From positions 1-64,000 of the forward strand of contig NZ_LQBK01000037.1 in assembly GCF_001483755.1 (NCBI RefSeq): DNA of 64,000 nt, written 5' to 3'. Origin of the DNA: Kocuria rosea subsp. polaris. GTDB taxonomy: Bacteria; Actinomycetota; Actinomycetes; Actinomycetales; Micrococcaceae. Position 1 is the stretch's first letter. The number at the start of each line of letters is the position of its first letter. The position numbers and the translations under genes were made by a program. The notes beneath the pieces were generated by a model. It was not told the DNA's origin, searched no databases, and worked only from the letters and a program-made list of their open reading frames with translations. This document shows, one piece after another, positions 1 to 51,132 of the stretch.

Positions 1-40
1 CCACCCCGCCAAGCGTCCATGTAGTTCAACTACGGGCCAC

Positions 41-95
41 TAGACGGTATGTAGTGACCGCCCAGATCACCCGGGCGGTCACTACATACCGTCTA
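41..95. terminator. Long perfect inverted repeat, possible terminator
   Basis: Two 23-base arms (41-63 and 73-95) are exact reverse complements around a 9-base spacer. The resulting hairpin is far longer than expected by chance. There is no T-run after it on either strand, so it may be an actinobacterial terminator of a gene left of the window, or a structural or recombination element. Confidence 0.5.
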
Positions 96-770
96 AGACA
101 GGAGCTGAGCCATGGAAACCACACGGCCCGCTCCCTATGTGCATTTTTCATTTTGACCAGTGGCGAACTTCCACACCGATAAGGGGCCGGATAATTGGCA
201 GTCACTCTCACAAGCGTCGCCCTACGACCTTTAAAGCGCAGCGGAGCCACAACACAATGATCGTGCAAAATACGATGATAGTGACATACTATTGCGTAAC
301 CAACTGCAGAGTAATCACGCACCTATAACGCAACGGTATATGTACTGTATCTGTGCAAAGCCTTGCACTCGCATACTGTGACGCAAGAGCCCCGCACACA
401 AGGTAGCGCATCGATTGCTCAACTAGTAAACAACATTAATAGAGCAGTCGCATATCATATCGCATGCAACGCACGTCAGACCATCAGCACGATGACACAT
501 TATACAAATGCGAAATAAATCGATTTCGGATTTAAGATGAGGGAGTCACTATGGGAAAAATCAATTAGCGTTAAAAATAATCATAAGTGTCCATGGCTGG
601 CTACGGAGGGTCCTAAATCCCGAGGCGGCTCTAGACGCACGCAATGCGAATACTCTTAATGTCAAAGGTCGGATCAATAAAGATACGCACCTACATGCGA
701 TCGCTTTTGAGCGCTAGTCCAGCGAAGGGCATAGCCCCTGCATCGGGCGTGTACGAAAGGAATCCACAAA
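96..770. other. AT-richer intergenic stretch without a convincing gene
   Basis: About 675 bases, clearly lower in GC than most of the window. The open frames at the start of the window are short, rich in Arg/His/Cys, and have no ribosome binding site or family resemblance. I see no gene here. The promoter of the following gene must lie near its right end. Confidence 0.5.
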
Positions 771-1373
771 ATGTTTGAAACTCATGAAACGCTAATTATC
801 CCGGAAACGCTGGAGTTGCAGCAAGCAGGTTTTGGCGCAGCACTCAGTGGAACCATGGAGGGGTCCCAAGTCCGCGACGTGTTGGCAGATCCAGCGATCG
901 CAGCGCTGATAGAAGACACCCCTGACAATCTCCAGGTATACCGAGGGAAGTCAGTTGCGAAGCGTTACGGCATCGGTGTCCAGGGCTCTGGGGCAAAGGC
1001 GAAGGGCAGAATCAGCGGCACGTTCACTGGCTATGACTACACAAGGGCGTATCAGGTTTACAACCTGCCGTCGAACACGTCGGCAAAGTACTGGTTCATT
1101 ACTTACAGCAGGTCAAGCAATAACTCTGCGCTAAAGGAAGTGGCAGGTACAGCGAATACCACTCGGCTCAATTATAATCTTGAATTTGAGCTCACCGGGA
1201 ATGATCGAGGCATCACTAGCGTCTTTATCTACTTTGAGACCATCCGCCTTAAGTTTAACGGTCAAACCAAGGACTTCGTCGTAACGAATCCAGAGAGTTC
1301 GGGTGCGGCTGCGCCTGATGGGACCCCTTACCCGGGAGGGTTCACGCCCATTGAGCAAAGCGGCGGCGGATGA
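771..1373 (+). CDS. Uncharacterised 200-residue protein, copy A
   Basis: I do not recognise this family. A GAAAGGA ribosome binding site (755-761) stands 9 bases before the ATG. It is a full-length paralogue of the protein at 3726-4328. Both share an N-terminal block with LPETLELQQ or IPETLELQQ, then IAALIE and LQVYRGK near residue 60. A probably beta-rich middle follows (GYDY, VFIYFETIRL). The flexible tail after TKDFVVTNP is rich in Gly/Pro/Ser. There is no signal peptide or membrane segment, so it is predicted cytoplasmic. A subtilase gene lies between the two copies, suggesting the protease may process or be controlled by these proteins; that is inference. Confidence 0.75.
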   Translation: MFETHETLIIPETLELQQAGFGAALSGTMEGSQVRDVLADPAIAALIEDTPDNLQVYRGKSVAKRYGIGVQGSGAKAKGRISGTFTGYDYTRAYQVYNLPSNTSAKYWFITYSRSSNNSALKEVAGTANTTRLNYNLEFELTGNDRGITSVFIYFETIRLKFNGQTKDFVVTNPESSGAAAPDGTPYPGGFTPIEQSGGG

Positions 1374-1430
1374 TTAGACAGTTATTACGCGCCTGGCTGA
1401 TCGCCGGAGCATAGCTTCTCGATTGGCGTC

Positions 1431-1484
1431 GACAGTCGGGCTCTACGACCACCGTGTAATACGTACCCGTAGGGCCCGACTGTC
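1431..1484. terminator. Hairpin between copy A and the subtilase gene
   Basis: Arms 1431-1447 and 1468-1484 (17 bases) pair with one G-U wobble in plus-strand RNA, around a 20-base loop. It lies 58 bases after the stop of copy A in a 347-base gap. It is probably a terminator or attenuator separating copy A from the protease. Nothing else is evident in the gap (1374-1720). Confidence 0.5.
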
Positions 1485-1720
1485 ACGGCGGTTTGTCCAG
1501 CCAGACCTCGGAATGACGATGCGACAATTCTTAAAACTCTCGTTTATCTGTCCGCCAACGCCATTGCAAGTTCCACCAAACCATTTATTCAAAAAACATC
1601 CAGTGAGTATTTAGTCTCGGTTTGCGGGGTGAGCTTCAATCCTATCTCAAGAACCATTGCAGTTTGGGAAAACTAGATAACACGCTGGGAAAATAATAAC
1701 CATGCTAGAAGGTGCCCATC

Positions 1721-3613
1721 ATGCTCGACTCGAGATTAAAGTTTCTGAATACTCTAAAAGAACAGGACGGGAGCGAGAAAATTTTTTCCACACTGGAATC
1801 TACAGGTCGCTTTGGTCTTGTTAGTGAGGAAGAGCTGAGGGTACGTATTCTAGTCCAGGTTGACGGAGTCAGGGACACTGAACTCCGGGAGCATGGCTTA
1901 AGAATCAACACTCGAGCGGGAGATGTTATATCCGGCGACATTGCTTTATCCTCCGTCGAAAGCCTTGGCAATGTCGAGGGGGTAGTCCTTGTCGAGGCAG
2001 CCCGACCGATGGCCTTCGAACTAGATATAAGCCTGCCAGAAACTCGCGCCAATCTTGTGCATCAAAGTCCGCCGGGTCATCGAGGTGCAGGAGTCATTCT
2101 CGGCATCATTGACTCGGGAATCGACTGGATGCACCCATGCTTCCGGGACGGCGCAGGCAACAGCCGGGTGCTTCGCATATGGGATCAGACGCTATTCCCT
2201 CTAGCCGGTGAAATCTCACCCGCCCAGTTTAACTATGGAGTGGAATATCAGCAAGGGCAAATCGACTTCGCTCTCGCGACGGCAAATTCACGTAATACGA
2301 TTCGTAGCATGGATGGCCCCAGTGGGCATGGCACACACGTTACTGGCGTTGCCGCAGGAGACGGCTCCGCTGCCGGCAATGGCGTGCCACCGTTCAACTT
2401 CGTTGGCGTTGCACCGGAGGCAGACATTATCATCGTCACCAATCAAGTGACGACTGAAGCTTTTGGCGACTCCGCGACGACGTTGGACGCCATTCAGTAC
2501 ATTTATAGCGTCGCTCAGACTTTTGGCCGACCCGCCGTAATTAACATCAGCCAGGGTGACAATTTGTCTGCCCATGATGGAACTGCCCTTCTGGAACGGG
2601 GCATCGATAATCTACTCGGAGGTGGTGGGCGTGCACTCGTTAAGTCCGCTGGCAACGCCGCGAATGGGGGAGTACATGCGAGCGGCACGGTAAATACCGA
2701 CAGCACGAGCGCAATTCAGTTCATCGTGCCGGAGAGTGACAAAACACCGGACACTCTAGATTTTTGGTATAAAGCGACGGACCGCATTGGTTTTGCTTTG
2801 AAACCACCATCGGGTACGGAAACTGAAGCGATTGCCCCAGGCACGAGCGCCACGCTTGCCATGGACAATGGAAACCGCGTCTTTGTCGACTCTGTCGTCA
2901 ATTATCCAAACAACGGCGACAATCGCATATACGTCCAGTTACACCCTGGTGCGGCACCGTCTGTGGAATCGGGCACCTGGACGGTGAAGCTCATAGGGGA
3001 TTCGGTGGTCGACGGTGTTTGGCACGGCTGGATCGAGCGCGGCACAACGGTTCCAGAATTCATCGGGGAATACCGCAATGACAAGGTCACTATCTCTATT
3101 CCTGGAACCAGCACCGAGGTGATTACGGTCGGAAGTTACATCACCAAAGGTTCTGGCACAGGAAACCTCTCGACGTTTTCCAGTCGGGGTCCAACCCGTG
3201 ACGGACGGTCTGCGCCGACGATAGCAGCGCCAGGACAGGCCATCCTATCCGCCAACTCCGGTGCCAGCTCGTCGGATATGCAATACATCAGTATGTCGGG
3301 CACGAGCATGGCGAGTCCACATGTGGCCGGGGCGGTTGCACTTATGCTCCAAGCGTCGCCGACCCTCACTCAGCGGGAAGTTATTAATCGGCTGGTAGGC
3401 GCGGCGCGCGACGACAATTTCACGGGCAACGTACCCAACAACGATTGGGGAGCAGGCAAGCTCGACGCATTCGGGAGCAGCCGCCAGCTGAGCGACGAAG
3501 TCCAGGCTGAACTTTATGCGCTTCGCAATGAGAATAACGAACTTCGAAGGGAAGTTGATATTGTCAGAGGCCGGATTGCCCGCTATTCCAAAAATGACAC
3601 TTATCAGGAATGA
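1721..3613 (+). CDS. Subtilisin-like serine protease (peptidase family S8), no signal peptide
   Basis: This 630-residue endopeptidase has the full catalytic triad: Asp131 in IIDSGIDW, His203 in GHGTHVTG and Ser529 in SGTSMASPH. Residues about 38-100 form an I9-like prodomain ending VLVEAARPM. Between His and Ser is a large insertion (roughly 290-460). The last 40 residues form a charged coiled coil (LYALRNENNELRREVDI). Start choice: an upstream in-frame GTG at 1712 exists, but AGAAGG (1707-1712) sits 8 bases before the ATG at 1721. No signal peptide is seen, unlike secreted subtilisins, so it should act inside the cell. The flanking paralogues at 771 and 3726 and the standalone prodomain at 4645 suggest a regulated proteolytic module. 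Confidence 0.93.
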   Translation: MLDSRLKFLNTLKEQDGSEKIFSTLESTGRFGLVSEEELRVRILVQVDGVRDTELREHGLRINTRAGDVISGDIALSSVESLGNVEGVVLVEAARPMAFELDISLPETRANLVHQSPPGHRGAGVILGIIDSGIDWMHPCFRDGAGNSRVLRIWDQTLFPLAGEISPAQFNYGVEYQQGQIDFALATANSRNTIRSMDGPSGHGTHVTGVAAGDGSAAGNGVPPFNFVGVAPEADIIIVTNQVTTEAFGDSATTLDAIQYIYSVAQTFGRPAVINISQGDNLSAHDGTALLERGIDNLLGGGGRALVKSAGNAANGGVHASGTVNTDSTSAIQFIVPESDKTPDTLDFWYKATDRIGFALKPPSGTETEAIAPGTSATLAMDNGNRVFVDSVVNYPNNGDNRIYVQLHPGAAPSVESGTWTVKLIGDSVVDGVWHGWIERGTTVPEFIGEYRNDKVTISIPGTSTEVITVGSYITKGSGTGNLSTFSSRGPTRDGRSAPTIAAPGQAILSANSGASSSDMQYISMSGTSMASPHVAGAVALMLQASPTLTQREVINRLVGAARDDNFTGNVPNNDWGAGKLDAFGSSRQLSDEVQAELYALRNENNELRREVDIVRGRIARYSKNDTYQE

Positions 3614-3725
3614 TCGATAAAATAATGCCCTGCCACCTCCCCTTCCACCTACTACTTAGCTGAGGTAAAGCAAATAGGAGGGGCACGCTAGCAGTACGGG
3701 AACGGCAAAAAGGAAAATCTAAGAC

Positions 3726-4328
3726 ATGCTGTCAACAAATGAAAGACTCATACTGCCCGAGACGCTGGAGCTGCAGCAGTTACGCTGCGGTATAGCACTA
3801 GGTAGAAATCAGAGAAATACCCCAATTAGTGACCCGCTTGAAAATTCAAGTATCGCTGCACTGATAGAGAAAACCTCTGGCGCCTTACAAGTATATCGAG
3901 GCAAGCGGCCTATTACAAGTTCCACCGTGCCGGTGCTAATTTCCGGCGGGGTCACAACTGGTGACATTAATGGAACGTATTTTGGATACGACTATAACGA
4001 TATTTTCCAAATATATAAATTGACATCGACTGTTCCTGCGGAAGAATGGTTCCGCAATTATGTGAGTTCGTCGGACAATCAAAATTTGAAAAGTATTTTT
4101 GAAAAATCCAGTACTAAAAAACTCTCATATCAACTTAAATTCACATTGTACGGTAATAATGAGGGGGTCGTTACTGTCTTTATTTACTACGATATCATTC
4201 GGATCACAATGGACGGACAAACGAAAGACTACATGGTGACGAATCCCGCTAGCTCCGGAGCGGTAACACCTGGAGGCGTCATCTATCCTGGATATAGCGC
4301 TGAGTCTGCCCCTATTCCAGAGGAATGA
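3726..4328 (+). CDS. Uncharacterised 200-residue protein, copy B
   Basis: Paralogue of the 771-1373 product with exactly the same length. It keeps the N-terminal LPETLELQQ, IAALIE and LQVYRGK blocks, the GYDY core, the VFIYYDIIRI strand and the tail TKDYMVTNPASSGA before a Gly/Pro-rich end. A poly-A/AAGGA ribosome binding site (about 3707-3714) lies 11 bases upstream. The DNA is lower in GC than copy A. The middle of the protein has diverged much more than its two ends, as expected if the ends make conserved contacts. Function is unknown. It lies 112 bases after the subtilase gene on the same strand and could be co-transcribed with it. Confidence 0.75.
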   Translation: MLSTNERLILPETLELQQLRCGIALGRNQRNTPISDPLENSSIAALIEKTSGALQVYRGKRPITSSTVPVLISGGVTTGDINGTYFGYDYNDIFQIYKLTSTVPAEEWFRNYVSSSDNQNLKSIFEKSSTKKLSYQLKFTLYGNNEGVVTVFIYYDIIRITMDGQTKDYMVTNPASSGAVTPGGVIYPGYSAESAPIPEE

Positions 4329-4644
4329 ATCGATGCCTCTACCGTCGTACCGGTCGCGGGCAAATTTCTGCATAACACCTGCACCTTAGGTGTGAGTGCA
4401 AGGCCATTTGTATCGCCAACCATAGCTTACTGCATATAATAAATTGCAAAGTGCCACGGAACTGATTTGAGTATACGCGGCAATGTAATCCTCGATTATC
4501 TACGGCAGCATTACCGTATAATTGCTTGGGGTAGTTTTCCGTGAATCTCCAAAAGTTATTCTGGCCAGAGTAGGAAACGATAACACTTCGCCACAGTGGG
4601 CATTTTGCCCGTCGAGCATGCACCCGATCTACGTGACGTCATGC
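4329..4644. other. Intergenic region between convergent genes
   Basis: 316 bases between the end of copy B and the end of the standalone prodomain gene. AT-rich. I see no open frame with coding character and no strong hairpin. Confidence 0.4.
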
Positions 4645-4986
4645 CTATGTGCTGGCTTTTGGATTATCGTCAGCGTGCATTGACTCAGACGGGAGGGGGC
4701 GGCTGACCTCGATGAATTTAACGATCTCAAGGTTAGCTAGCTCTTGGAGTTGACTCGAGGGAATAGACGCTGTAAGGATGTCGCTCGCAATTGTTCGCAC
4801 CGTTGCCCCGACTGACTTGAAAATGAGCACATCGTCAGGTGCCGATAGTGGACGCGTCGTTCGCACAAGAACGTCCGTTTCTTCTTGCTTATTTTCTGCG
4901 AATCTTTGACGCCAGAATGATGCCTTTATAAATATTTGTTTAGCTTCGGGGCTGAGCTTTTCTTGTGGCTTTTTTGAGTTTTCCAT
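4645..4986 (-). CDS. Standalone subtilase prodomain-like protein (I9-type inhibitor fold)
   Basis: 113 residues. Residues about 38-97 align without gaps of note to the prodomain of the neighbouring subtilase. Both run from a (V/I)LV strand through a RI/VRTIA(S)D(I/V) centre to a closing VEAARPM or IEVSRPL. Prodomains of this fold act in family S8 as folding chaperones and tight inhibitors. A free copy without a protease domain therefore suggests an immunity or inhibitor protein that restrains the protease in trans. The N-terminus is a charged helix (KKPQEKLSPEAKQIF). No strong ribosome binding site is visible. It is transcribed towards copy B. Confidence 0.65.
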   Translation of the reverse strand: MENSKKPQEKLSPEAKQIFIKASFWRQRFAENKQEETDVLVRTTRPLSAPDDVLIFKSVGATVRTIASDILTASIPSSQLQELANLEIVKFIEVSRPLPSESMHADDNPKAST

Positions 4987-5118
4987 GAATTTGATTCTTT
5001 TTCACACCACGGCCGCTATTATTGCTCTGGGCATTTTAGCCAGCGTCCTAATTGATGCTAGTAGCTTAATCGGAGAACCTATGAAGAGAAATGCATATAG
5101 GTGCAAATATTTTTATAC

Positions 5119-5159
5119 GGAGGGCTGTCAGTCCATTGCCAATGGACTGACAGCCCTCC
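5119..5159. terminator. Perfect 20-base inverted repeat
   Basis: Arms 5119-5138 and 5140-5159 are exact reverse complements, making a nearly loopless hairpin of very high stability. On the minus strand it is followed by an A/T-rich run, so it could be an intrinsic terminator for leftward transcription entering from the right. It equally fits an IS-related scar. The flanks (4987-5436) hold no convincing gene. Confidence 0.5.
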
Positions 5160-5436
5160 CCGTCTACTAAAATTTATGACTTGATATTCCTTTGCGGCAT
5201 AGATTCTCAGGAGACCCCAAGCGTCACCGTGAAAACAAGCATAACGATAGAGATGAAAGCCTCACTAAATTCGGTCATAATTTCAATAATTATATTAGTC
5301 ATGTACTTCTCTCAACTTTCTACGGTCTCGCCCTAGTGGTGAGATCGGATATAAATAGTATGAGTGTCTATGGGTCTTGTTTTCAACGGCACCTAGATTT
5401 ACGTCCTTACGTTACTGTGCCTATGTTCATGCAGTC

Positions 5437-5824
5437 TCTTATTGCCTATGGGTACGGATGGCATGCCGGTGGTCGTGGGGGCGGTAATATCGCTCGGGAC
5501 AGCAGCACTCGGGTTGGTTTTAACTACGTCCACTCAATAGTCGATGCCCCATTGAGGCTTGCGTATATGGATATTGTGGCGATAAGGATAGCTACGCCTG
5601 CACGAGATTCCTGGCCGGGGCCGCGTCCTACTTTGCCGCCCGCGTCATTTTCCAAATCGAGCGGGCAATGACCGTTAATGCCTGAGCTTACCGGCAAGTT
5701 CACTTCGGCAAGTACTTACGCACCGCGGCCTTTATTTTCTAGATCGAGCACTACAACATCGAAGGACTCCAGTAGCGCATTCGGTGGGCATCCGGTGGGC
5801 AGCCGTCTGCGACCAACCTCATGA
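5437..5824 (+). pseudogene. Decayed IS481-family transposase remnant
   Basis: Reading across frames gives recognisable pieces of an IS481-type DDE integrase core. They are GYGWHAGGRG and then RVGFNYVHSIVDAPLRLAY around 5450-5580; CTRFLAGAASYFAARV and an ERAMTVNA*AYR segment in another frame (about 5595-5700); then IEHYNIEGLQ and SSAFGGHPVGSRLRPTS ending at a TGA at 5822-5824. Family members read roughly VGFDYVHS, LAY, RVMTDNGxxYR, HYN and HSALGGRPPxSRL in this order. Stops, at least two frameshifts and a deletion show it is dead. It marks past IS insertion at the edge of the low-GC block. Confidence 0.7.
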
Positions 5825-6073
5825 TTGGCTACATATAGGGAGGGCTATGGAGGATTTAGTTGGTTGGCGGCCAGCAATACCAACCAATGGCGAGGCGATA
5901 CATGCACGGGTAAGCGTGAAAGACATGGCAGACCCTGGATCGCAACCACATCGTTGTATGTAAGACATGCCGTCGCGGGCCCATGACATTTCGTTGACTT
6001 GCGGGCGGAGTGGCCCTCAATATGTCTGTGAGCCCGAGTCGGTGTACCGGCTAGTCAGAGCGGGGTTTAGTCC

Positions 6074-6817
6074 TTGGATGATCAAAACGTCATTCGAATT
6101 GAGTTGCTCGGACGGTGGAGCGCGTCCGTCCGGGGATACAGCGTCCAGGTGGGTCGCCGGCAGGAACGTCTGCTGGCGGCGTTGGCCGTGCACGGTACCC
6201 GTTCTCGCAGATTTCTCAACGGTTTACTGTGGCCCGAATGCACGGAATTTCATGCCCAGGGAAGCCTCCGAGCGACGGTCTTCGCGCTTTCCCGCCGACT
6301 GCCTGGAGCAGTGGTGTGCCACGACACCGACCTCAGTCTCAGCGAATTCGTGGACGTCGACTTGCACAGGCTACGGCAGGTCCTGGATCGGCCGGCGTCC
6401 TCCGTCTTATCCAGTTTGGAGGAGCGGTGGTTGCTGGACCGCTCCCGCATCGAGCTGTTGCCCGGGTGGTGTGAGGACTGGGTCGTGTCCGAGGCAGACA
6501 AGCTGAGAGAGGAATATTTCGACTTCCTCGAAATGCATGCCCTTGTTGCCCTCGACCAGTGCGACCCTCGCCGAGCACTCCAACTGGCCCGTACCGTGCA
6601 CCGACTTGACCCGTTAAGGGAGAGCGCCGTGAGCATTCTGGTGCGAGGGCATCTGACGCTGGGGGACGAGATCGCGGCTTTGCGGGAATTCCGGAATTAC
6701 TGTGGTGTAGTAGCTCAGGAACTTGGTTCCGGGCCTTCTCCTAACCTCGCGGGCCTCTTTGAGAGCTGGTCCCATGTCCGGGCTCAAGGCTTCCCCGGTC
6801 CGCCTTCGGCCAAATGA
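6074..6817 (+). CDS. SARP/BTAD-type transcriptional regulator (short)
   Basis: 247 residues with the two-part layout of small Streptomyces antibiotic regulatory proteins. An OmpR-like winged-helix half (about 5-100; IELLGRWSASVRG, RRQERLLAALAVHG, SLRATVFALSRRL) precedes a bacterial transcriptional activation domain (about 100-235; ALDQCDPRRALQLARTVHRLDPLRESAVSILVRGHL). It probably binds promoter DNA as an activator. The frame has a TAG at 6068-6070, so the TTG at 6074 is the earliest possible start; no strong ribosome binding site is seen. No biosynthetic cluster is adjacent, so its target is unknown. It sits alone between IS remnants and may itself be a passenger. Confidence 0.8.
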   Translation: MDDQNVIRIELLGRWSASVRGYSVQVGRRQERLLAALAVHGTRSRRFLNGLLWPECTEFHAQGSLRATVFALSRRLPGAVVCHDTDLSLSEFVDVDLHRLRQVLDRPASSVLSSLEERWLLDRSRIELLPGWCEDWVVSEADKLREEYFDFLEMHALVALDQCDPRRALQLARTVHRLDPLRESAVSILVRGHLTLGDEIAALREFRNYCGVVAQELGSGPSPNLAGLFESWSHVRAQGFPGPPSAK

Positions 6818-6826
6818 CACCTGATC

Positions 6827-6955
6827 TTATAACCCGGTCGTCCGGCATAGGCGGCGGAGGTTGGTTAGCGCGACGGCGAGCAGCACCAGCCGCGAGAGCA
6901 ACGTGGTTGTGGTGCGGTCGTAGCGACCCCGAGTCGCTTGAAGCGTATCCGTTAC
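6827..6955 (-). pseudogene. C-terminal fragment of IS5-family transposase
   Basis: The minus strand reads TRGRYDRTTTTLLSRLV followed by LLAVALTNLRRL and a TAA at 6827-6829. This is the typical end of small actinobacterial IS5-family transposases. Only about 43 codons remain. The fragment is fused on its upstream side to the IS256 remnant near 6956, so two elements have been joined by deletion. Confidence 0.7.
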
Positions 6956-7521
6956 CGGCCTAGATCCCGAGGATGTCGCGTTGTTCCCCGTGCACGGTCA
7001 CGCCCATGACGACGTAGAACGGGGTGTTGCGCACCTGCCCGTCGCGGACCAACACCGGCGATCGCGTCGACGAAGAGCACCGGGTAGAGCGGGTCCAGCG
7101 GGCGCGAAGACCACTCGGCCAGCTCGCCGGCGACCTTCTCGGTGATCTTCGAGATGGTGTCTTTGGAGACCTTAGCGCCGTAGACCTCCTCGAAATGCGC
7201 CGAGATCTCCCCGGTGGTCAGCCCGCGGGCCGACAGCGAGAGCACGATCTGGTCGATCCCGTCCAGGCGCCGCTTGCGCTTGGGCACGATCACCGGCTCG
7301 AAGGACCCGTCCCGGTCCCGGGGCACCTCGATCTCGACCGGGCCGATCTCGGTCAGCACGGTCTTCATTCGGGTCCCGTTGCGCATGTTGACCGCGATCG
7401 GTGCCTGCCCGTGGTCGTGCCCGAGGTGCTCGGTTAGCTCAGCTTCCAGGGCTGTCTCGAGAACGTTCTTCGTGAGCTTGTACCTTGTCCTGTTTCCCTG
7501 CCGGAATGCGAACTGCAGCAT
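6956..7521 (-). pseudogene. Truncated, frameshifted IS256 (mutator) transposase
   Basis: The N-terminal half of an IS256-family transposase: ALEAELTEHLGHD, then EIEVPRDRDGSFEPVIVPK, GLTTGEISAHFEEVYG and YPVLFVDAI. The frame breaks near 7055. The continuation LVRDGQVRNTPFYVVMGVT and HGEQRDILGI sits in another frame and stops about 6962, before most of the catalytic domain. The family's usual length is about 400 residues. The first residues (MLQFAFRQGNRTRYK) also look foreign, so the 5' end is rearranged too. Confidence 0.85.
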
Positions 7522-7594
7522 TCGTGGTCTCGCTGGCGACAGATTTGTGGATATTCCGGCAAAAGGCCGATAATGATGTCAGGGTAACAAACGA

Positions 7595-9577
7595 TCAGAT
7601 GGTTGCCGCGCGTGCTGCGATGAGTTCCCCGGCGGCGAAGCCGTAGACGCCTAGTCTTTGTCCCGGTACCACGTCCGCGACGGTCAGATGGACGCCGCCG
7701 TCTGTCACATCCTGGGAGGTCCGGGGGCGGGTGTCCAGGTAGAGGTCGATGCGGTCGATTCCGGCGACCGTCAGGTCCACGGTGGCCACACCACCGGTCG
7801 GGTCTCCGACAACTACCTCCAGTCGACGCGCTGGCATCGACGCCAGTATTTGCCCTGCTGCAGCCAACAGGTCGACGTTCCCGTTGAGCACATCATTGCG
7901 TGTCATCCGGTGGGTCGTGTCCGGCCGGACCCCAAGGTCTTCGACGGGGGTTCCCGCCGCCGCACCGACCCGTAGCGTTCGGCGAATAGCCGTCCGGAGG
8001 TTCGCGCCGTTGGGAAGCGCGCGGTAGGGCGAGTCGGCGTCCGCTGGATCTGGGATTTTTAGCAGCTGGGCCAGCAAACTGTGGGCCCAGACGTTTGCCC
8101 CACCCGCGCCGGTGTTGTCGTCGGTTCCAAGGATTTTTCCTATCTGATGGTCCGCGAACCCGGCGGCGAAGATATCCGTCGCCGAGTAGCAACGGGCATC
8201 GGTGATCATTACCACCGGCCCGTGATAGGTCTGACCGATCTCGTTCGCCCCGCTTGCAGGCGTGATGGGGTGCGCAGCCGAGTAAGTCGCCCCTGTCTCG
8301 GTGGCCTGCTCCAGCGATTCGTACCATGGCCCTAGATCGATCTGACCCGTCGGGTTATCTTTGTGCCGGCGAACAATCCGAAGGTTGAGCCCCGTGCTGA
8401 GGAACTGCGCCGGTTCGGGGAATATCGCCTTCGGAGTCAGGGTCTGCAGGAGGAACTCCGCGGCATAAATATGTCCGCCGCCGTTGTCCCGTACATCGAC
8501 GATCAGCCCATTCTGGGGCAACTGTCCGATCAAGCGTACGAATTCGTCGCGAAAAGCCACCGGATCCGGGACGTTAAAGGTGAATATCCGCACATACCCG
8601 AATGTCCCGCTTGTGGTGCTCACCGCCCGTGCTCGCACCACTCCTGGCATGGTGGTCGCGATGTCAGCGTCCGCCGCTGCCACCGGCTCAGTTAACTCAG
8701 CTGAGCTCTGCCCATCTTCGAGGCTCACGACATCGGGGCGGTACAGCAATTTCATTGCGCGTGACTTCTCGTCGGAATCTAGGTCCAGACCCATCGAGGT
8801 GGCCTCTACGCTCACCGCATCGTGGTCGGTAGCCGGCGGCAAGTTGGTCGCGACCTGCCATTGAACGCGCCACTCACGAGCCACTCCGTCGCTGCCAACA
8901 AAACTCACGATTACCCACTCCTCCTCCGGCGGGAGCTGGATGATCAGCGGGCGTAACGTCAGTGAATCAAGCCCTCGTGCCAGATTCGCCGCCTCATTGC
9001 TGCCCGCGAAGCGGGCGCCGTTCACCGCCACAGCGCGTGCGATCGGTGTTCCGTTCCAATGAGTGATCTCCGCGCCCACGCCGAAACCTTCGGCGTGGAC
9101 CCCTCCCATGATCTCCGTGACAATGTAGTGGTCAGCACCGGAGTCGTAGGCTTTTTCGATCCGGAACGGCAGGAAGGCGATACGGCCAGCAAAGGGCGCC
9201 GGGAGTAGATAGTTGGTATGTAGGTCACGCACCGAGTGAAAGATGCTCGACATTTGCCCGTGAAACAACCACTCCGGATCCATCGTCGAGTCCGTCTGCC
9301 GATCCAGCCTCGTGCGCAGCAGCTGCAGGCGCCGCACCGGGTTCGCCGCGTGCATCGCCTCCTTCAACGGCAAATGCACGTAGTTCGATTCGACCAGGAG
9401 CAGCGCCTGATCGACGATCAGTTGGCGATCCTGCAACGTCAACGAGCCTGCTTGGGCAAGAAACGCACCCAGAGCTTCGGACGCTAAGTCAGGCACGTCA
9501 CCTTCTCGACTATCTCGTGCCATTGTCCGGTGCGCTAACGCACTCGCATTTGTTGTTGGCTGCTCAGATTTAGACAT
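7595..9577 (-). CDS. S41-family (C-terminal processing type) serine peptidase
   Basis: 660 residues. The C-terminal half carries the S41 core: VDVRDNGGG, then the nucleophile Ser465 in DARCYSATDIFAAG, with a glycine-rich DDNTGAGGA loop after it. The N-terminal 230 residues include a helical region and a PDZ-like segment (GGVHAEGFGVGAEITHWNG). No signal peptide is visible, although many S41 proteases are exported, so a cytoplasmic or peptide-processing role is possible. An AAGGAG ribosome binding site 7 bases upstream fixes the ATG at 9577. It stands alone. Substrate unknown. Confidence 0.88.
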   Translation of the reverse strand: MSKSEQPTTNASALAHRTMARDSREGDVPDLASEALGAFLAQAGSLTLQDRQLIVDQALLLVESNYVHLPLKEAMHAANPVRRLQLLRTRLDRQTDSTMDPEWLFHGQMSSIFHSVRDLHTNYLLPAPFAGRIAFLPFRIEKAYDSGADHYIVTEIMGGVHAEGFGVGAEITHWNGTPIARAVAVNGARFAGSNEAANLARGLDSLTLRPLIIQLPPEEEWVIVSFVGSDGVAREWRVQWQVATNLPPATDHDAVSVEATSMGLDLDSDEKSRAMKLLYRPDVVSLEDGQSSAELTEPVAAADADIATTMPGVVRARAVSTTSGTFGYVRIFTFNVPDPVAFRDEFVRLIGQLPQNGLIVDVRDNGGGHIYAAEFLLQTLTPKAIFPEPAQFLSTGLNLRIVRRHKDNPTGQIDLGPWYESLEQATETGATYSAAHPITPASGANEIGQTYHGPVVMITDARCYSATDIFAAGFADHQIGKILGTDDNTGAGGANVWAHSLLAQLLKIPDPADADSPYRALPNGANLRTAIRRTLRVGAAAGTPVEDLGVRPDTTHRMTRNDVLNGNVDLLAAAGQILASMPARRLEVVVGDPTGGVATVDLTVAGIDRIDLYLDTRPRTSQDVTDGGVHLTVADVVPGQRLGVYGFAAGELIAARAATI

Positions 9578-41421: not shown

Positions 41422-44400
41422 TTACAGCTCCAAGCCGCCCTGTTGGGGTCGCTGCTCGTCGTGCCGTCGTGCCACCTCCGGGGGACGCCCGGAGCCGTTG
41501 CCGCCACGCCCGGCACTGCTACGACCCACAGTGGGAGCGTCGGGGAAGTTGATCCGCATTCTCTTCTTCAACGCCTCCAGCTCCGGGTCCAGGGTCGGCT
41601 GTGGCGTCTCCTCACCGCGCATGGCGCGCCCGATCCGCTCCACCTCCCACCGGGCGGCCTCGAGTGCGTCCTGGTGCTTGAAGGGCACCCCTAGCGCCTC
41701 CCGGGCGTCCACGGCTTCCTGCCGGGCGGCGGTCAGTCGCGCTTCGCGCTTGGTGACTTCTTCGGGCAGTGCTCGGACTTGGTTCTCCAGGCGCTGAATC
41801 ATGCCCACGCTCGGGTTCAGCGACGTCGCCCGGGTGACTTCCACGGCCACACCGGGGGCGTCGTCGATGCGCAGCTCCACCGGGGACGCACTGAGATCGG
41901 CCAGGTTCCCCGGCCGCTGCACGACCCGGATGTCGTGCCCACCAATGGCGCCGGCGACACCGAGATCGGTCTCCCCGGCTCGGGGCGGACGCGAGGTGGC
42001 GTGCACCCCGGCCCATTGCTGCCACGCCTCCGCCGCCTCGGCGCGCTTGTCGTAGGTGGCCCCGTCGATGGTCATCCGGAACCGTTCACCGCCGAGCTCA
42101 TCGGTGGTCCGCTCCGCCGCTGCGCGGAGCACGGGGATCTCCCGCTCCAGCGCATCAGCGCGCACCTGGGCGGCGTCCTTGCGGAACACCAGCGAGGACT
42201 GATTGCGGTGCCAGGCCCGGTTCAACCGCTCCAACCGGGCGAGCTCCTGATCGGCCTTCGACTTCTCCAGGATCAACGGGTTGCCGCTGGAGATTGCCTT
42301 CACCTCGGCGAAGGACAGAGTGTTGTCCCCGACGTCCTCGATCTCGCGCACGTCCAGGCGCCCGCGCATGATCTGGTCAATGAACTTCGACTTCCGCTCC
42401 AACGTCTGCCACATGAAGGTGTCGAACGAACCCTTCGTCACCACCTGCGAGATGGCGACCTCCGGGTTCTGGTTGCCTTGCCGGATGATCCGCCCGTGGC
42501 GCTGGGCGACATCGGCCGGGCGCCACGGGGCGTCCAGATCCACCAGGTGCACCGCCCGGGCCTGGATGTTCGTGCCCACCCCCATCTTCTGTGTGGACCC
42601 GATCAGCACCGCCACCTCCCCGGTCCGCGCGGCCGAGAACAACCGGCCCTTCTCCGCATCGTTGCGGGCTTCGTGCATGAACCGAATCTTCTCCCCCGGC
42701 ACCCCCCGCTCGACCAACTGGGCGCGCAGCTCGTCGTAGACGTTCCAGGACTCCGAGGGGGTGCCCAGGTCGCAGAACACGATCTGCAACCCACCCCGGG
42801 CGGGGTGCTCCTCCCCGGTCGAGGGATCCGTGAACACATCGTTCCGGTGGTCCTCGTACACCCGGGCCATCAGGTCCGCGGCGGCACTGATCTTGGTCTC
42901 CGCCACGACCGACCCCAGCTCCGGATCCACCAGGCGCAGGTCCAAGGCGGCTTTGCGCCCGTCGGAGCTGATCTTGAGCATGTTGTCCTCGGTCGGGGAC
43001 ACCAACCGCGCCTGGATCGCCTCGGCCCGCCGGCCGATCTCCGCGATGTAGTCCTGCAGCTCCGCAGAAGCCTCCACCGGGACCATGCGCGGCAGCCGCT
43101 TCCCGTCCTCCCGCACCACCAGATCCGGGGTGGGCAGCTGCAAGTCCTCGGCGGTCTTCACATCGGCGAAAGTGTGGAACATCTTCAACAGCTCCGGGAC
43201 GTTCTGGAACTTCGCGAACCGCTCCTTCATCTTGAAGCTGTCCCCGCCGGCCACCGACAGCTCCATCTCGGAGACCACCTGACCGAAGGTCGCCGCCCAC
43301 GAGTCGAAGTCGTGGATCCCGGCCCGCTCCAACAACTCCGGACCCAGATAGCGCTGCATCACATACATCTCGGTCACCGAGTTCGCGATCGGCGTCGCCG
43401 TCGCCCCGGTCATCACCCGATCCCCGTGCTGGGACCGCAGGTACTCCACCTTGGAATGCAGGTCACTGGCCCGCTTGGACCCATCGATCGCCGCATCAGA
43501 GATGTTCGAGGCGGTGTCGAGGTTCTTGTACTCGTGCAGCTCATCGACCAACAGGTAGTCGATGCCGGTCTGCTCGAAGGTGATCCCCGGATCGGTGGCC
43601 CGGTCGGACTTGGCCTTGAGCTTCTCCTCCCTCGCCTGCAGTCGGGCTTCCATGCGCTTGATGGACATGGTGTCCGCCCCGCTGGCCGCGGCCCGTTCGT
43701 TGGCCGCTTGCAGCTCGGAACGCTGACGCTCGAGCTCCGCCAGCTGGTAGGCCATCCGGGAGTCCGTGGAGAGCTCGATGCGCTCGAACGCGGTACGGGT
43801 CATGATGATCCCGTCCCAATCACTGGCCGCCGCCCGGGCCACGAACACCCGCCGCTTGTCCCCGGCCAGATCCTCGGAGGAGGCGGCCAGGATCTGGGCC
43901 TGGGGGTAGAGCTGCAGCCACTCCCGGGAGAACTGGTCCAGCATGTGGTTGGGCACCACGATCACCGGTTTGCGCGCCATCCCCAATCGGCGCAGCTCCA
44001 TCGCGCCGATGACCATCTCGGCGGTCTTGCCCGCTCCGACCTCGTGGAAGAGCCCCACCGAGGGCTCCGAGAGCATCCGTGCCACTGCGGCGCGCTGGTG
44101 GGGGCGGGGGGTGAAGTTCTTCACCAGCCCGGGGAACGTCAGGCGTTCCCCCTCGACGGTGTAGTCGCGCAGCACGATGGAGTTGAACCGCCGGTTGTAC
44201 TCATCCACCAACCCGGCCGCTCGTGCCGGGTCCTCCCACACCCACTCGCCGAAGCGCTCCTGCATCAGTTGCGCTTTCTCCTGGGCGGCGGTGGTCTCGG
44301 TGGCGTTGACCACTCGGCGGTTGCCCTCGGGATCCGACGGGTCGGGGTCGGTGACCTGCACCCGGCGCTGCTCCAGCAGCTTCTTGAAGATGTCTCCGGC

Positions 44401-46992
44401 CGCCATCCGCTCGGTGCCCCAGTCGTTGCGGGCCGCGAAGACATGACGGCTGGCCCGTACATCCCAGTTCGCGCCGCTGATCCGGTCCACCTGCGCACTG
44501 GGGTCCTTGAGGATGTGGCGCAGGAACTGCTCATGAATCTCTGGGGCCACCCACACCGCGCCGATGCGGGCCTCGATCTCATCCGCCCCCAACGGGGCCG
44601 GCAGCACCGCCTCCAGGGCGGTCACGTTGGTCTGGAACCGGCCATCGGCGGCCGCTGCGGCCTGGGCTGTGTCCAGCTTCTCGCGCACGTCCCCGGACAG
44701 GTACTCCGCCCGGGTCTCGTAGACCCCGTCCTCCCCGGGCACCTCGTAGACCAGTTCCCCCAAGGTCTCGCGCGCGGACTTCTCGTCGGTGCCCAGCAGG
44801 GCCGCGATGTGGGCCATCTCCACGGTCCCCAGCGTGTCCAGGGTGACGGCCAGGGCCTCATCCGGGGTGTCCACCCCGAGCACGGGTCGGCGTGGCTGGA
44901 CCTGCCGCTGCGACAGCAGATCGGCTGGGGCGGCGGTGCCGGTGCCTTCGTCGAAGTGCTCCAACGCTTTCACCAACGGCCCGAAGGGATCCCCGCGCAG
45001 CAAGCGGACCGCCGGCGGGGTGACGCGGGCCAGGATGTCCGCCCCCGCCTCGTCGTATTTGCCGGTGCGGCGTTCGGTGAACCGGTTGATCGCTCCGTAG
45101 CGGTCGTAGTAGCTCAGGTAGGTGGTGCGCAGCTGCTCGCGCATGGCGTCGAGTTCCGGAGTGTCCTCGACGTTGGCGGCCTCCAAGGTGAGCACGGCCC
45201 GTCCTTGGTCACGCAGCCCGAGCAGGGCACGGAGTTCGGCCTGCTGGGTGGTCGGCACCGGCAACGGTGCGTGCACCCCCTCGAGGGTGACCTGAGTGAA
45301 CGTCCCGTCCCCTCGCGCCGTGATGTGTCCGACCTGTTCCTGGTCGGTGGTCGGCACCAGGGCCGCCGCCTCGAGCTCGTGCTCACTCGTGCGCTCGACC
45401 ATTCCCCGCCCGGCCGCCAGGGCCTCGGCAGTGATGTCCGCCAGTTGCTCGTGCAGCCGGGCCCCGGTGGCCGCCAGGTCCTCAGCGCGCACAGTGAGGG
45501 TGGCGGAGCCGTACATGCCGTTGCCGATCACCGGCTCACCGAGCACCCGCTCAGGGCGCTCCAAGAAGTAGACGTTCATCCGGCCCTGCTGGCCGCCCAG
45601 TTCCACCGGTGCGGTCTCCACCCAGGACTGATCCAGCGGCTCCTCCCCGGGCAGGCGGCGCCGGAAGATCAGTACGTCGGTCAGTGCGTCCGTGCCGGCC
45701 GCCCGACGGTGGGCCCCGGTGGGCAGGCGCACCGCGCCCAGCAGATCGGCGGTCTCGGCCATCTCCCGGCGGGCCGCGGGGTTCTGCGCGTCCAGGGTAA
45801 AGGCTGAGGAGATTACCCCGACCACCCCGCCGGGGCGGGTCAGGGCCAGAGACTTGAGGATGAAGTGGTTGTGCATCGAATGCCCCGCCGCGTTGTGCCG
45901 GGGATCGTGCAGAGAGTTGCGGGAGAACGGGACGTTGCCCACCGCGGCGTCGAAAGTGCCACCGGGCATCCGGGTGTCGGCGAAGGACTCGGGGCGGATG
46001 ATGGCGTCCGGGTAGATGGCCTGGGAGATGGCCGCGGTCACCGGGTCCAGTTCCACCCCGGTCATCTGGGAGCCTTCCGGGGCCAGGCCGATGAAGGTGC
46101 CGGCACCGGAGCCGGGCTCCAGCACCCGCCCGCCCGCAAAGCCCAGCCCGGTCAGGGCACCCCAGACCTCGGCGGCGATCGCCGGATCGGTGTAATGGGC
46201 GTTGATCACCGTGCGCCGTGCGGCGGCGTACTCGGTCTCATCCAGCAGCTCGTGCAGTTCGGCCCGCTCGGCCTCGTACTCGGTGCGGGACTCGTCGAAG
46301 ACCTCCGCCACCCCGCTGGCGCCCCAGGAACCCCACCGGGCCAGGGTGGTGCGCTCGGCCTCGGTGGCGGCCCGATCCTCGGCCTGCAGGGAGCGCAGCA
46401 CGTGAAGCGCTGCCAGATTGGCCCGGAACCTCGCCTGCGCCCCGGACGGGGCCAGGTCGTCCTGGGCGCGGGGGACGAAGCGCCCCGGCCCCGCAGGCTC
46501 AGGAGCGTCTGGAGTTACGCCTGTTCCGCGTCCAGCCGGTTCACCTCTTCCCAGTACTCCCGGTCCTCGCGGTTCGACTCCTGGATCGCCTGGAGCATCC
46601 GCGCCACCCCGGACTCCTCCTCGTCCTCCTCCTCCGGTTCCTCCTGCACCGACGGGTCCGGAGTCAGCATCTCGACCCGCACGATCTCCTCGGCCTGCAG
46701 CTTCGCCGCGTTCAACCGCCCCCACTTCTCCAGGAAGCTCTCCCCCACCGGGTCCGGGCCGGCCAACGCCGTCGTCAAGTCCTCCACCCTGATCGAGGCC
46801 TCCTCCCCCAGCTGCTCGAACCACTGATCCGGGTCCGGGATCAGGGCGTACTCCGCCGGCGCGGTCGTCCTCCACGCTTCCTGCGCGAACTTGCCGTACG
46901 TGTTCATCACGAACCTCCTCGGGTTCCGGGAAGAGAAAGGCATCAATGCTCAACTGCCCCTCGACTTGTGTCCTTCTACGGGCTCGGGCCAT
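41422..46992 (-). CDS. Giant N6-adenine methyltransferase-SNF2-like helicase protein of the conjugative element
   Basis: Up to 1856 residues. After an unusual N-terminus, a class I methyltransferase domain has VLEPGSGAGTFIGLAP and the catalytic-type GNVPFSR (in place of NPPF). The SF2 helicase has Walker A HEVGAGKTAEM, box II LLVDELHEY, TGATATPIAN, and C-terminal QRHGRIIRQGNQN. Similar proteins occur on many conjugative elements and phages, where they are thought to modify or remodel incoming DNA and protect it from host restriction. AGGAG 8 bases before the ATG at 46992 supports that start. However, residues about 28-160 are Gly/Arg-rich shadow-like sequence overlapping a separate gene (46515-46907), so the true start of the enzyme is uncertain. 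Confidence 0.85.
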   Translation of the reverse strand: MARARRRTQVEGQLSIDAFLFPEPEEVRDEHVRQVRAGSVEDDRAGGVRPDPGPGSVVRAAGGGGLDQGGGLDDGVGRPGPGGGELPGEVGAVERGEAAGRGDRAGRDADSGPVGAGGTGGGGRGGVRGGADAPGDPGVEPRGPGVLGRGEPAGRGTGVTPDAPEPAGPGRFVPRAQDDLAPSGAQARFRANLAALHVLRSLQAEDRAATEAERTTLARWGSWGASGVAEVFDESRTEYEAERAELHELLDETEYAAARRTVINAHYTDPAIAAEVWGALTGLGFAGGRVLEPGSGAGTFIGLAPEGSQMTGVELDPVTAAISQAIYPDAIIRPESFADTRMPGGTFDAAVGNVPFSRNSLHDPRHNAAGHSMHNHFILKSLALTRPGGVVGVISSAFTLDAQNPAARREMAETADLLGAVRLPTGAHRRAAGTDALTDVLIFRRRLPGEEPLDQSWVETAPVELGGQQGRMNVYFLERPERVLGEPVIGNGMYGSATLTVRAEDLAATGARLHEQLADITAEALAAGRGMVERTSEHELEAAALVPTTDQEQVGHITARGDGTFTQVTLEGVHAPLPVPTTQQAELRALLGLRDQGRAVLTLEAANVEDTPELDAMREQLRTTYLSYYDRYGAINRFTERRTGKYDEAGADILARVTPPAVRLLRGDPFGPLVKALEHFDEGTGTAAPADLLSQRQVQPRRPVLGVDTPDEALAVTLDTLGTVEMAHIAALLGTDEKSARETLGELVYEVPGEDGVYETRAEYLSGDVREKLDTAQAAAAADGRFQTNVTALEAVLPAPLGADEIEARIGAVWVAPEIHEQFLRHILKDPSAQVDRISGANWDVRASRHVFAARNDWGTERMAAGDIFKKLLEQRRVQVTDPDPSDPEGNRRVVNATETTAAQEKAQLMQERFGEWVWEDPARAAGLVDEYNRRFNSIVLRDYTVEGERLTFPGLVKNFTPRPHQRAAVARMLSEPSVGLFHEVGAGKTAEMVIGAMELRRLGMARKPVIVVPNHMLDQFSREWLQLYPQAQILAASSEDLAGDKRRVFVARAAASDWDGIIMTRTAFERIELSTDSRMAYQLAELERQRSELQAANERAAASGADTMSIKRMEARLQAREEKLKAKSDRATDPGITFEQTGIDYLLVDELHEYKNLDTASNISDAAIDGSKRASDLHSKVEYLRSQHGDRVMTGATATPIANSVTEMYVMQRYLGPELLERAGIHDFDSWAATFGQVVSEMELSVAGGDSFKMKERFAKFQNVPELLKMFHTFADVKTAEDLQLPTPDLVVREDGKRLPRMVPVEASAELQDYIAEIGRRAEAIQARLVSPTEDNMLKISSDGRKAALDLRLVDPELGSVVAETKISAAADLMARVYEDHRNDVFTDPSTGEEHPARGGLQIVFCDLGTPSESWNVYDELRAQLVERGVPGEKIRFMHEARNDAEKGRLFSAARTGEVAVLIGSTQKMGVGTNIQARAVHLVDLDAPWRPADVAQRHGRIIRQGNQNPEVAISQVVTKGSFDTFMWQTLERKSKFIDQIMRGRLDVREIEDVGDNTLSFAEVKAISSGNPLILEKSKADQELARLERLNRAWHRNQSSLVFRKDAAQVRADALEREIPVLRAAAERTTDELGGERFRMTIDGATYDKRAEAAEAWQQWAGVHATSRPPRAGETDLGVAGAIGGHDIRVVQRPGNLADLSASPVELRIDDAPGVAVEVTRATSLNPSVGMIQRLENQVRALPEEVTKREARLTAARQEAVDAREALGVPFKHQDALEAARWEVERIGRAMRGEETPQPTLDPELEALKKRMRINFPDAPTVGRSSAGRGGNGSGRPPEVARRHDEQRPQQGGLEL
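46515..46907 (-). CDS. Small acidic protein nested in the 5' end of the giant helicase gene
   Basis: 130 residues, start ATG with GAGGAGG 6 bases upstream, the best ribosome binding site in the area. The N-terminus (MNTYGKFAQEAWRTTAP and YALIPDPDQWFEQLGEEA) is well folded-looking and, from memory, resembles small proteins often encoded just before such giant helicases. The tail is strongly acidic (EEPEEEDEEE). It lies wholly inside the giant frame on the same strand, in a different phase. Codon quality favours this frame as the real one here. Function unknown. Confidence 0.75.
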   Translation of the reverse strand: MNTYGKFAQEAWRTTAPAEYALIPDPDQWFEQLGEEASIRVEDLTTALAGPDPVGESFLEKWGRLNAAKLQAEEIVRVEMLTPDPSVQEEPEEEDEEESGVARMLQAIQESNREDREYWEEVNRLDAEQA

Positions 46993-47090
46993 GGGGGGAT
47001 CTCCTGATTGCGATCGGGAATCTCCCTCACACGCTACCCAGCACCTCCACGACCATCTTCTAGAACACGCACCAGCCAACACTCCTTATG

Positions 47091-48060: not shown

Positions 48061-49953
48061 TTGAGAATCTCACGGGTACATATTGAAAACTTCCGCTCCT
48101 TGAGAGATATAACGATAGAATTCAGCTCTATCACAACTTTCATTGGTCCCAATGGAGTGGGGAAATCATCTGTACTGAGAGCTCTCGACTGGTTCTTCTC
48201 GCCTGTAGGCAAAACAGGACTTCTATGCGACGACGACCTTACTAGCGGATGTTCTGGTGAAAAGATCCGTGTCGAAGTGCAGTTTACCGAACTTACAGAC
48301 GAAGATCGTGACGCTCTCGGCGCATATGTGCCTGAAACGTCAAAAACATTTATTGCGTGGAAAACACGAACAGCGGAGGGCCGCGAATACTTGTCAGCCA
48401 ATGCCAAATCATACGCGGCATTCGAGACTATCCGTGAACAAGGACTGAGCGCTGCGGAAAAAAAGGCACGATATAAAGCTCTTCGAGAGGAAGATCAGTC
48501 ACTAAACCTTACCAATGCAACTACCAGCGCGGCGATCGACGAAGCAATGCGCACGTTCGAGGCAACCAACACTCATCTTCTGACGGACGCTGCCGAAGAG
48601 CTGCAGACCAACTTTTTCGGCTTTAACGGCAATGGAAAGATGAGTGGCCTCTTTGATTATGTACTGATCACGGCAGATTTACGCGCAGCAGAGGAGTCGT
48701 CTGACATTAAAACCAGCATCGTCGGAAGGATTCTAGAGCGAACTATCGATAGGTCAGTTGCAGACAAGGAAATCGCGGCGATTGTCGAGACCAGCCGCCT
48801 CAGTCAGCAAGAAATCTACAAGAAGCACTTCGAAGCTCCATTGACTGACGTCGCCGAACGTCTCAATAGAGTGGTCGGGAGCTACAGCCCAGGCCGGAGC
48901 GTGAAAGTTTCGCCTGCGGAGATTGAACTCAAGGCACCACGAACGTCTTTTGGTGTAAGCATACTGGACGGGGAGATCGAAACCACTGTTGACCGCCAAG
49001 GCCATGGTTTTCAACGAACCATACTTATCTCCGCCCTTCAGATGCTCGCTGCCGTAGGGGCAGCGTCAGATACGGGAGTTATATTTCTAGCCATCGAAGA
49101 GCCCGAGCTGTTCCAGCATCCCGTCCAAGCACAGGCGTTTGCTAAGGTATTACGCGACCTCGCCAGTGACTCTGGCAAGAACATTCAAGTAGCTTATGCT
49201 ACGCACAGCCCATACTTCGTGGATGGGGCTCATTTCGATGAAGTGCGCCGACTCGTTCGTGATGCCTCTGGAGAGCGCACTGTTTCCGTACACTCGTGCA
49301 CACTGACTGACGTTGAAGCGCGCATCAATGACACCACTCAGTCTGAGAAAATCAAGCGGCAATTGAACGGAGTGATTAGCAACCAGCTTTCGTCTGCAAT
49401 CTTTGCAAATGCCGTACTTTTAGTAGAAGGAACCACGGACCAAGCAATCTTGGAAGGTATCGCCGACCGCCATACGATTGGAAGATTCGAAGCTTCGGGA
49501 ATTGTAGTGGTGCCAGCTAACGGCAAGTCTAATATTCCACTCCCGCACGCTATTCTCTGTAGCCTCGGCATTCCAGTCTATAGCGTATTCGACGCAGACT
49601 CAGGCCTTGAAGGCCGCGCAGTAGACAAGGGTAAGAAACCGGCCGAGGTTAGAGCTCTGGTTTCAAACAACCACAAGATGAACCGTAGGAATCTGAAACA
49701 CTTTGGACTTGCGGAAGAGGACCTTCCTTGCAAGCAAGTGGGCGACAGAGTCGCTATTTTCGAAGATCACCTCGAAGCTTTGCTGGAGGGCGAATGGCCA
49801 CAGTGGAGCCACTCCTGTTCGGCACATGAGGCAACTACCGGTGAAGTAATCTCGAAGAACCATGCTATATATCGCACAGTGGCCCGGAGCATAGACGCAG
49901 ATCCGCCCCGACAGCTGGCCGACATTATCGACAAAGTTTTTACACTTACCTAA
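48061..49953 (+). CDS. OLD-family ATP-dependent endonuclease (AAA-TOPRIM)
   Basis: 630 residues. The ABC-like ATPase half has Walker A GPNGVGKSS near residue 30, a signature-region helix and Walker B FLAIEEPELFQHP with the ATHSPYFVDG switch. The TOPRIM nuclease half has LLVEGTTDQAIL and the acidic VFDADSG. Length and order fit class 1 OLD nucleases, which act in phage exclusion or DNA repair. The TTG start follows a GGGGA. There is no adjacent UvrD-like GajB gene, so it is not a Gabija pair. The gene is lower in GC than its neighbours and ends at a strong terminator: a self-contained defence-type cassette. Confidence 0.9.
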   Translation: MRISRVHIENFRSLRDITIEFSSITTFIGPNGVGKSSVLRALDWFFSPVGKTGLLCDDDLTSGCSGEKIRVEVQFTELTDEDRDALGAYVPETSKTFIAWKTRTAEGREYLSANAKSYAAFETIREQGLSAAEKKARYKALREEDQSLNLTNATTSAAIDEAMRTFEATNTHLLTDAAEELQTNFFGFNGNGKMSGLFDYVLITADLRAAEESSDIKTSIVGRILERTIDRSVADKEIAAIVETSRLSQQEIYKKHFEAPLTDVAERLNRVVGSYSPGRSVKVSPAEIELKAPRTSFGVSILDGEIETTVDRQGHGFQRTILISALQMLAAVGAASDTGVIFLAIEEPELFQHPVQAQAFAKVLRDLASDSGKNIQVAYATHSPYFVDGAHFDEVRRLVRDASGERTVSVHSCTLTDVEARINDTTQSEKIKRQLNGVISNQLSSAIFANAVLLVEGTTDQAILEGIADRHTIGRFEASGIVVVPANGKSNIPLPHAILCSLGIPVYSVFDADSGLEGRAVDKGKKPAEVRALVSNNHKMNRRNLKHFGLAEEDLPCKQVGDRVAIFEDHLEALLEGEWPQWSHSCSAHEATTGEVISKNHAIYRTVARSIDADPPRQLADIIDKVFTLT

Positions 49954-51102: not shown

Positions 51103-51132
51103 GCCTGGAGCGTAAACTGAATCGCCCGGCAA

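Follow-up and report, generated by a model that had tools for sequence, protein, structure and literature searches.

Gene content and setting of the locus

Four genes lie at the beginning of the window, i.e. the whole 64,000-nucleotide stretch of Kocuria rosea subsp. polaris DNA analyzed here, which makes up the first 64 kb of a contig of 73,291 bases in a 3.83 Mb genome of 42 contigs. Three of these genes are on the forward strand. The first encodes P0001, a protein of 200 amino acids (771-1373), the second the S8 subtilase P0002 (1721-3613), and the third P0003 (3726-4328), a second 200-amino-acid protein recognized by its identity to P0001 and by a profile match over its whole length. The fourth gene (4645-4986) is on the reverse strand, convergent with the P0003 gene, and encodes P0004, a protein of 113 amino acids that matches a profile of N-terminal subtilase prodomains and is referred to here as a free prodomain. 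By eye, none of the four proteins has a recognizable signal peptide. This gene content is as described in the original prediction, which reported a leaderless S8 protease with an intact catalytic triad, flanked by two paralogs of 200 residues and accompanied by a separate homolog of its prodomain; all of these elements are confirmed by the data below.

An inverted repeat with a 17-bp stem (1431-1484; arms 94% complementary) follows the P0001 gene and is a possible terminator; it is absent from the output of the terminator scan, which requires a T tail. Because this repeat separates the P0001 gene from the protease gene, the four genes do not obviously form one operon. A perfect inverted repeat with a 20-bp stem (5119-5159) upstream of the P0004 gene may represent a boundary or a terminator. 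This repeat and a second perfect repeat (41-95; 23-bp stem) are located near the two ends of a low-GC segment, and a sequence resembling positions 34-95 matches four places on one Gordonia plasmid. The GC content of the four genes is 44-55% (43.6% for P0003 and 54.8% for P0002) compared to 64% for the window, and bases 1-6000 have a GC content of 45-56%, compared to values near 65-70% over much of the window. The low GC content of the four genes suggests that the segment was acquired from elsewhere. In a search against plasmids, 22 plasmid records matched the first 20 kb of the window, the best matches being to Kocuria flava, at 86% identity over 26%, and to Kocuria rosea, at 97% identity over 13%; we infer that the contig is a plasmid.

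Beside the locus are genes for a BTAD-domain regulator (6074-6817, forward strand) and an S41 peptidase (7595-9577, reverse strand). A BTAD gene is also present near the S8 gene of Streptomyces canus (4899-7853 of its locus, L014), the product of which has 984 amino acids, with approximately 400 residues past the protease domain that lack a Pfam match. The remnant of an IS256-type transposase gene (6952-7521, reverse strand) adjoins the low-GC segment, and IS256 transposases are listed under the plasmid match. Further into the window, a reverse-strand gene (41422-47082) encodes a helicase-like protein of 1886 amino acids with weak similarity to DrmD, BrxH and mad2, and a second low-GC patch contains a forward-strand gene for an OLD-like ATPase-TOPRIM protein (48061-49953; PADLOC Old, E = 1.8e-57) and a reverse-strand DUF4145 gene (50323-51132).

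The subtilase P0002 and free prodomains

The ORF of P0002 (1712-3613, forward strand) is open from a GTG at 1712 and encodes 633 amino acids if started there. The ATG at 1721, with AGAAGG ahead of it, is the better start and gives a protein of 630 amino acids. Numbered from this ATG, the catalytic triad is Asp131/His203/Ser529, with which the Ser529 of the original prediction agrees, and the triad is invariant in eight aligned proteins. P0002 matches Pfam PF00082 with 139.9 bits and the PADLOC model named subtilase with an E-value of 4.9e-34. It has an N-terminal prodomain (1721-2048, end approximate), which is defined by homology to P0004 and to the prodomains of 15 other subtilases, a catalytic domain with a large insertion, and a C-terminal tail that by eye resembles a coiled coil. 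Because P0002 lacks a signal peptide, the protein is probably cytoplasmic.

The solved structures nearest to P0002 in PDB are those of germination proteases, i.e. 9sj6_C (E = 2.8e-39) and CspB (4i0w_B; E = 1.8e-30). In both comparisons, a single phmmer stretch (residues 121-584 and 124-581, respectively) spans the insertion between the His and Ser residues of the triad, and the Csp jelly-roll is alignable. Judged by sequence, P0002 is closest to the Csp-type jelly-roll subtilases. Similar to CspB, CspBA and CspC of Clostridium and Clostridioides, it has a prodomain, an S8 domain and an alignable large insertion; the insertion is a jelly-roll in CspB, and that of P0002 is likened to it by sequence alignment alone. 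However, P0002 is far below the NCBIfam curated cut-offs for CspBA (175.5 vs 1250 bits) and CspC (137.6 vs 675 bits), and it differs from these proteins in having a separate prodomain gene. Kocuria is not known to be a spore-former. In two Rhizobium plasmids, the S8 gene of a related subtilase overlaps the beginning of a gene for an MBL-fold protein (3563-7044 in L022 and 3515-6966 in L029).

Subtilase prodomains are usually regarded as part of their own enzyme. P0004 has 33% identity to the P0002 prodomain over 42 residues (E = 4e-6 in a single comparison), and it matches the profile of N-terminal prodomains with an E-value of 1.1e-7, or 6.3e-7 when P0002 is left out of the profile. It scores under the gathering threshold of the Pfam CspB_prodomain family (13.4 vs 25 bits) and has no match to Pfam Inhibitor_I9.

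The recurrence of free prodomains was analyzed at 20 Csp-like loci, comprising 15 from plasmid and phage records, three from genome searches, one from a viral contig (L039), and the window. This sample is non-random: the 15 loci were hand-picked from lists of plasmid and phage matches, and Sinorhizobium medicae is counted twice. For the profile, N-terminal prodomains were taken from 16 Csp-like subtilases, and no free prodomain was among its seeds or those of its leave-out versions; one earlier profile had included such seeds and was used in neither of the two tests reported here. Among the 5090 ORFs of 50-200 amino acids scanned at 99 loci (19 Csp-like loci and 80 viral-contig loci, the latter including L039), seven matched the profile with E-values from 8.4e-10 to 2.5e-5, and the next E-value was 3. 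All seven are at Csp-like S8 loci, i.e. those of the window (4645-4986), Sphingobium (L012), Agrobacterium (L013), Rhizobium leguminosarum (L025), Embleya (L026), a genome of the same class as that of the window (L035), and S. medicae ml49 (L021). When the subtilase of the same locus was left out of the profile (both rhizobial subtilases in the case of L013 and L025), the seven ORFs remained the top seven (E = 1.3e-9 to 2.4e-4), while the best ORF outside the seven had E-values of 2.0 to 4.0. The best E-value among shuffled ORFs (4 x 5090) was 1.4.

Six of the seven ORFs represent genes in their own right, while the seventh corresponds to the frame-shifted end of the protease of S. medicae ml49: in S. 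medicae ml20 (4797-7133 of L009), a second prodomain-like stretch with the same sequence is fused to the S8 protein as its C-terminus, and a difference in length of one base shifts the frame in ml49; therefore, this ORF is not a separate gene. Thus, among the 20 Csp-like loci, a separate prodomain gene is present at six and a copy that is fused or frame-shifted at two (both from one species), while the remaining 12 lack both, so that an extra prodomain is not obligatory. At five of the six loci with a free prodomain, its gene follows the protease gene on the same strand after 15-108 nt. P0004 is unlike these five cases because its gene lies past the P0003 gene and on the opposite strand. In the fetched records for L012, L013 and L025, the free prodomain gene is labelled "hypothetical protein". 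The free copies of Agrobacterium and R. leguminosarum stop approximately three residues past the last conserved strand and, by their sequences, may not reach or fill the active site. On this comparison, the general part of the arrangement is the free prodomain, which recurs beside related subtilases in other bacteria. In the open-licence literature searched, including that on Csp-like proteases outside germination, we found no report of a free prodomain encoded next to a subtilase gene in bacteria.

The family of 200-residue proteins

P0001 and P0003 share 47% identity over 189 residues without gaps (E = 1e-59 in a single comparison), and they are the only two members of their family in the genome; dS for the pair was undefined. 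Sequence-family searches gave nothing significant for the 200-residue proteins: P0001 has no match in Pfam, PADLOC or NCBIfam at E<=1, or in Pfam at E<=10, and a single PHROGs line (E = 0.22). The sole relative found outside the window is P0005 of Ruminiclostridium sufflavum, with 46% identity to P0001; a search of genome contigs with short patterns gave 28 stretches, of which one was a relative. No further members were found in 99 relatives and 396 genomes of the phylum of the window, in 398 genomes from the phylum of R. sufflavum and 58 from its order, in plasmids (searched with P0001 and P0005), in phages (searched with P0003) or in viral contigs. One of the two matches of the pattern search in viral contigs (8044-8346 of L019, minus strand; E = 8.5e-4) was taken as a chance match and not as a member because it is short, antisense to a long ORF and contains the motif that was searched for. 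By these searches, the family is very rare.

The original prediction that the 200-residue proteins are substrates or sensors of the protease gained no support from the distribution of the family. P0005 is encoded just downstream of a BtrH_N-like gene that scores 27.2 bits against a cut-off of 29.7 (both genes together at 6428-8162 of L006 in R. sufflavum), and no BtrH_N match was found in the genome of the window. The three S8 genes of R. sufflavum are on contigs other than that of P0005, and none reaches an E-value of 1e-25 with P0002. The family is absent from all 19 other Csp-like loci and from the 80 viral-contig loci, L039 being in both sets, and profile comparison gave no link between the family and the subtilases (probability 1%). 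At one of its two known loci, the family is therefore found away from S8 genes, which is the setting that the original prediction named as refuting it if prevalent, two loci being too few to decide whether it is. The motif LPET, which is common to the prodomain junction of P0002 and P0003, was rejected as a recognition site: a score at least as high was obtained with shuffled sequences in 38% of trials for P0003 and in 30% for P0001, and among 204 windows the junction was in 90th place.

It is possible, if doubtful, that the genes are chance neighbors, i.e. that a Csp-like protease with its regulator and an unrelated, duplicated family came together on a patchwork plasmid. The position of P0005 away from S8 genes, the lack of the family at the other Csp-like loci, the stem-loop between P0001 and the protease and the unequal GC contents of P0003 and P0002 are all in favor of this explanation. 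It is argued against by the position of the protease exactly between two paralogs without other close kin in the genome, with all three genes in one low-GC segment.

Proposed working of the locus and its alternatives

We suggest, and give this reading roughly an even chance of being right, that the locus encodes a leaderless Csp-like subtilase that is controlled by a trans-acting prodomain and has two partners or substrates. In this model, the core is a two-gene protease-inhibitor unit consisting of P0002 and P0004. P0002, which is probably cytoplasmic, has its own N-terminal prodomain, and P0004 would represent a second prodomain in the form of a free protein. P0004 would bind P0002 in trans, aid its folding and keep the protease inactive; as a consequence, activity would be set by the balance of the two proteins. 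P0001 and P0003 would most likely be lineage-specific partners, substrates or targets of P0002 on a mobile element. P0002 may cleave P0001 and P0003, and the locus may have a role in conflict with phages or plasmids; the sole tie of the two proteins to proteolysis is the position of their genes.

On the precedents of CspB and of stand-alone propeptide inhibitors, we argue by analogy that P0004 most likely acts on P0002 in trans, as an inhibitor or as an aid to folding. In CspB, as described in passages of PMC3567191, the prodomain remains bound, covers the active site and is inhibitory, and when supplied in trans it restores folding and blocks active-site labelling. Propeptide-like inhibitors that stand alone occur in fungi, plants and apicomplexans according to parts of PMC6993865, and include POIA1, the yeast protease B inhibitor, Arabidopsis SPI-1, TgMIC5 and Plasmodium SUB1-ProM, the latter being encoded next to subtilisin genes (MEROPS I9 and mimics). 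Similar to these inhibitors, P0004 is a small protein in its own right that is a relative or a mimic of a subtilase propeptide. However, the inhibitors named in those parts of PMC6993865 are eukaryotic, while P0004 is a bacterial, putative inhibitor outside Inhibitor_I9. Also against this reading are the short rhizobial free copies, the 12 Csp-like loci that lack an extra prodomain, the position of the P0004 gene, its low Pfam CspB_prodomain score, and the location of P0005 away from S8 genes. Thus, the prodomain half of the original interpretation is strengthened, with a free prodomain that is real, recurs at other loci and has a precedent in trans, while the half that concerns substrates or sensors, effectors and gasdermins is not.

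Alternatively, the locus could be a toxin-antitoxin or conflict module, in which the subtilase acts as a toxin or an abortive effector, with P0004 as its antidote, and the paralogs are sensors or effectors that are cut upon loss of the antidote. We consider this unlikely, if far from negligible. The element-borne position and the foreign GC content would fit such a module, and related subtilases are encoded near an HmaA/DrmD-like helicase (L035), near an MBL gene that matches LmuA and Avs1a models and a gene for which the annotation is Shedu SduA-domain protein (L022), and near a SIR2 gene of the PDC-S25 type (L039); in L013 and L025, phospholipase D-like genes are near the subtilase with the free prodomain in between. 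In this chosen set of loci, the defence-type neighbors hint at conflict systems. However, most of the fetched S8 loci are without an identified defence neighbor, and within the window the two further defence-like genes lie at a distance of at least 36 kb. Subtilase toxins with an AAA-ATPase antitoxin are described for mycoplasma and for Agrobacterium IetS in passages of PMC8562856. IetAS modules share with the Kocuria locus an S8 protease on a mobile element together with a regulator gene, and P0002 has weak matches to PADLOC IetS (1.6e-5). By contrast, the antitoxin of IetAS is an AAA ATPase according to the same passages, and there is none beside P0002: none of the other three genes of the locus matches an AAA family in Pfam, and the flanking genes are the BTAD and S41 genes. 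Moreover, P0004 has no known antitoxin features.

A more specific version of such a system, which we regard as very unlikely, is an antidote switch in which the duplicated prodomain is diffusible and, once it is lost or titrated, the subtilase cuts two paralogous effectors, perhaps pore subunits, thereby killing or arresting the cell. No description of a protease-antidote switch of this kind was found in the papers searched.

Structure prediction of the small proteins alone, which had been proposed as a check, yielded models to which no known fold can be assigned. With AlphaFold2 on three sequences, the mean pLDDT was 40 for P0001 and 53 for P0005, which is too poor for naming a fold. The P0005 model has long strands interrupted by helices. 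No Foldseek match was obtained at E<=0.001 with these models, and the best Z was 4.1. In a second-look structure alignment with a poor model, seven of 18 rows were pore-formers, including epsilon toxin, BinAB and monalysin, which we take to be beta pore-formers, and eight were Hsp70/Hsp110 chains. Gasdermin pores were at ranks 1, 5, 7 and 20 for the P0001 model, and the 200-residue proteins have no Pfam or PDB sequence match to gasdermins. The fold-search matches of these models were rejected as evidence and are a lead at most. It is highly improbable that the 200-residue proteins are subtilase-activated pore-formers because, although these matches and the fungal HET-Q1/HET-Q2 pairs (in passages of PMC10989679, a gasdermin and an S8 protease, i.e. 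a protease beside a small protein that it possibly activates) point in this direction, the models are poor, long antiparallel strands alone attract such matches, and the family has no sequence or reliable structural link to gasdermins.

Returning to the reading that we favor, i.e. a subtilase under the control of a free prodomain, the genes for separate prodomains that occur next to Csp-like subtilases in Actinomycetota and Alphaproteobacteria would represent a simple genetic off-switch for a protease inside the cell, and they would provide a ready test case for trans-inhibition. If the 200-residue proteins are substrates of P0002, the locus would represent a natural protease-activated effector pair.
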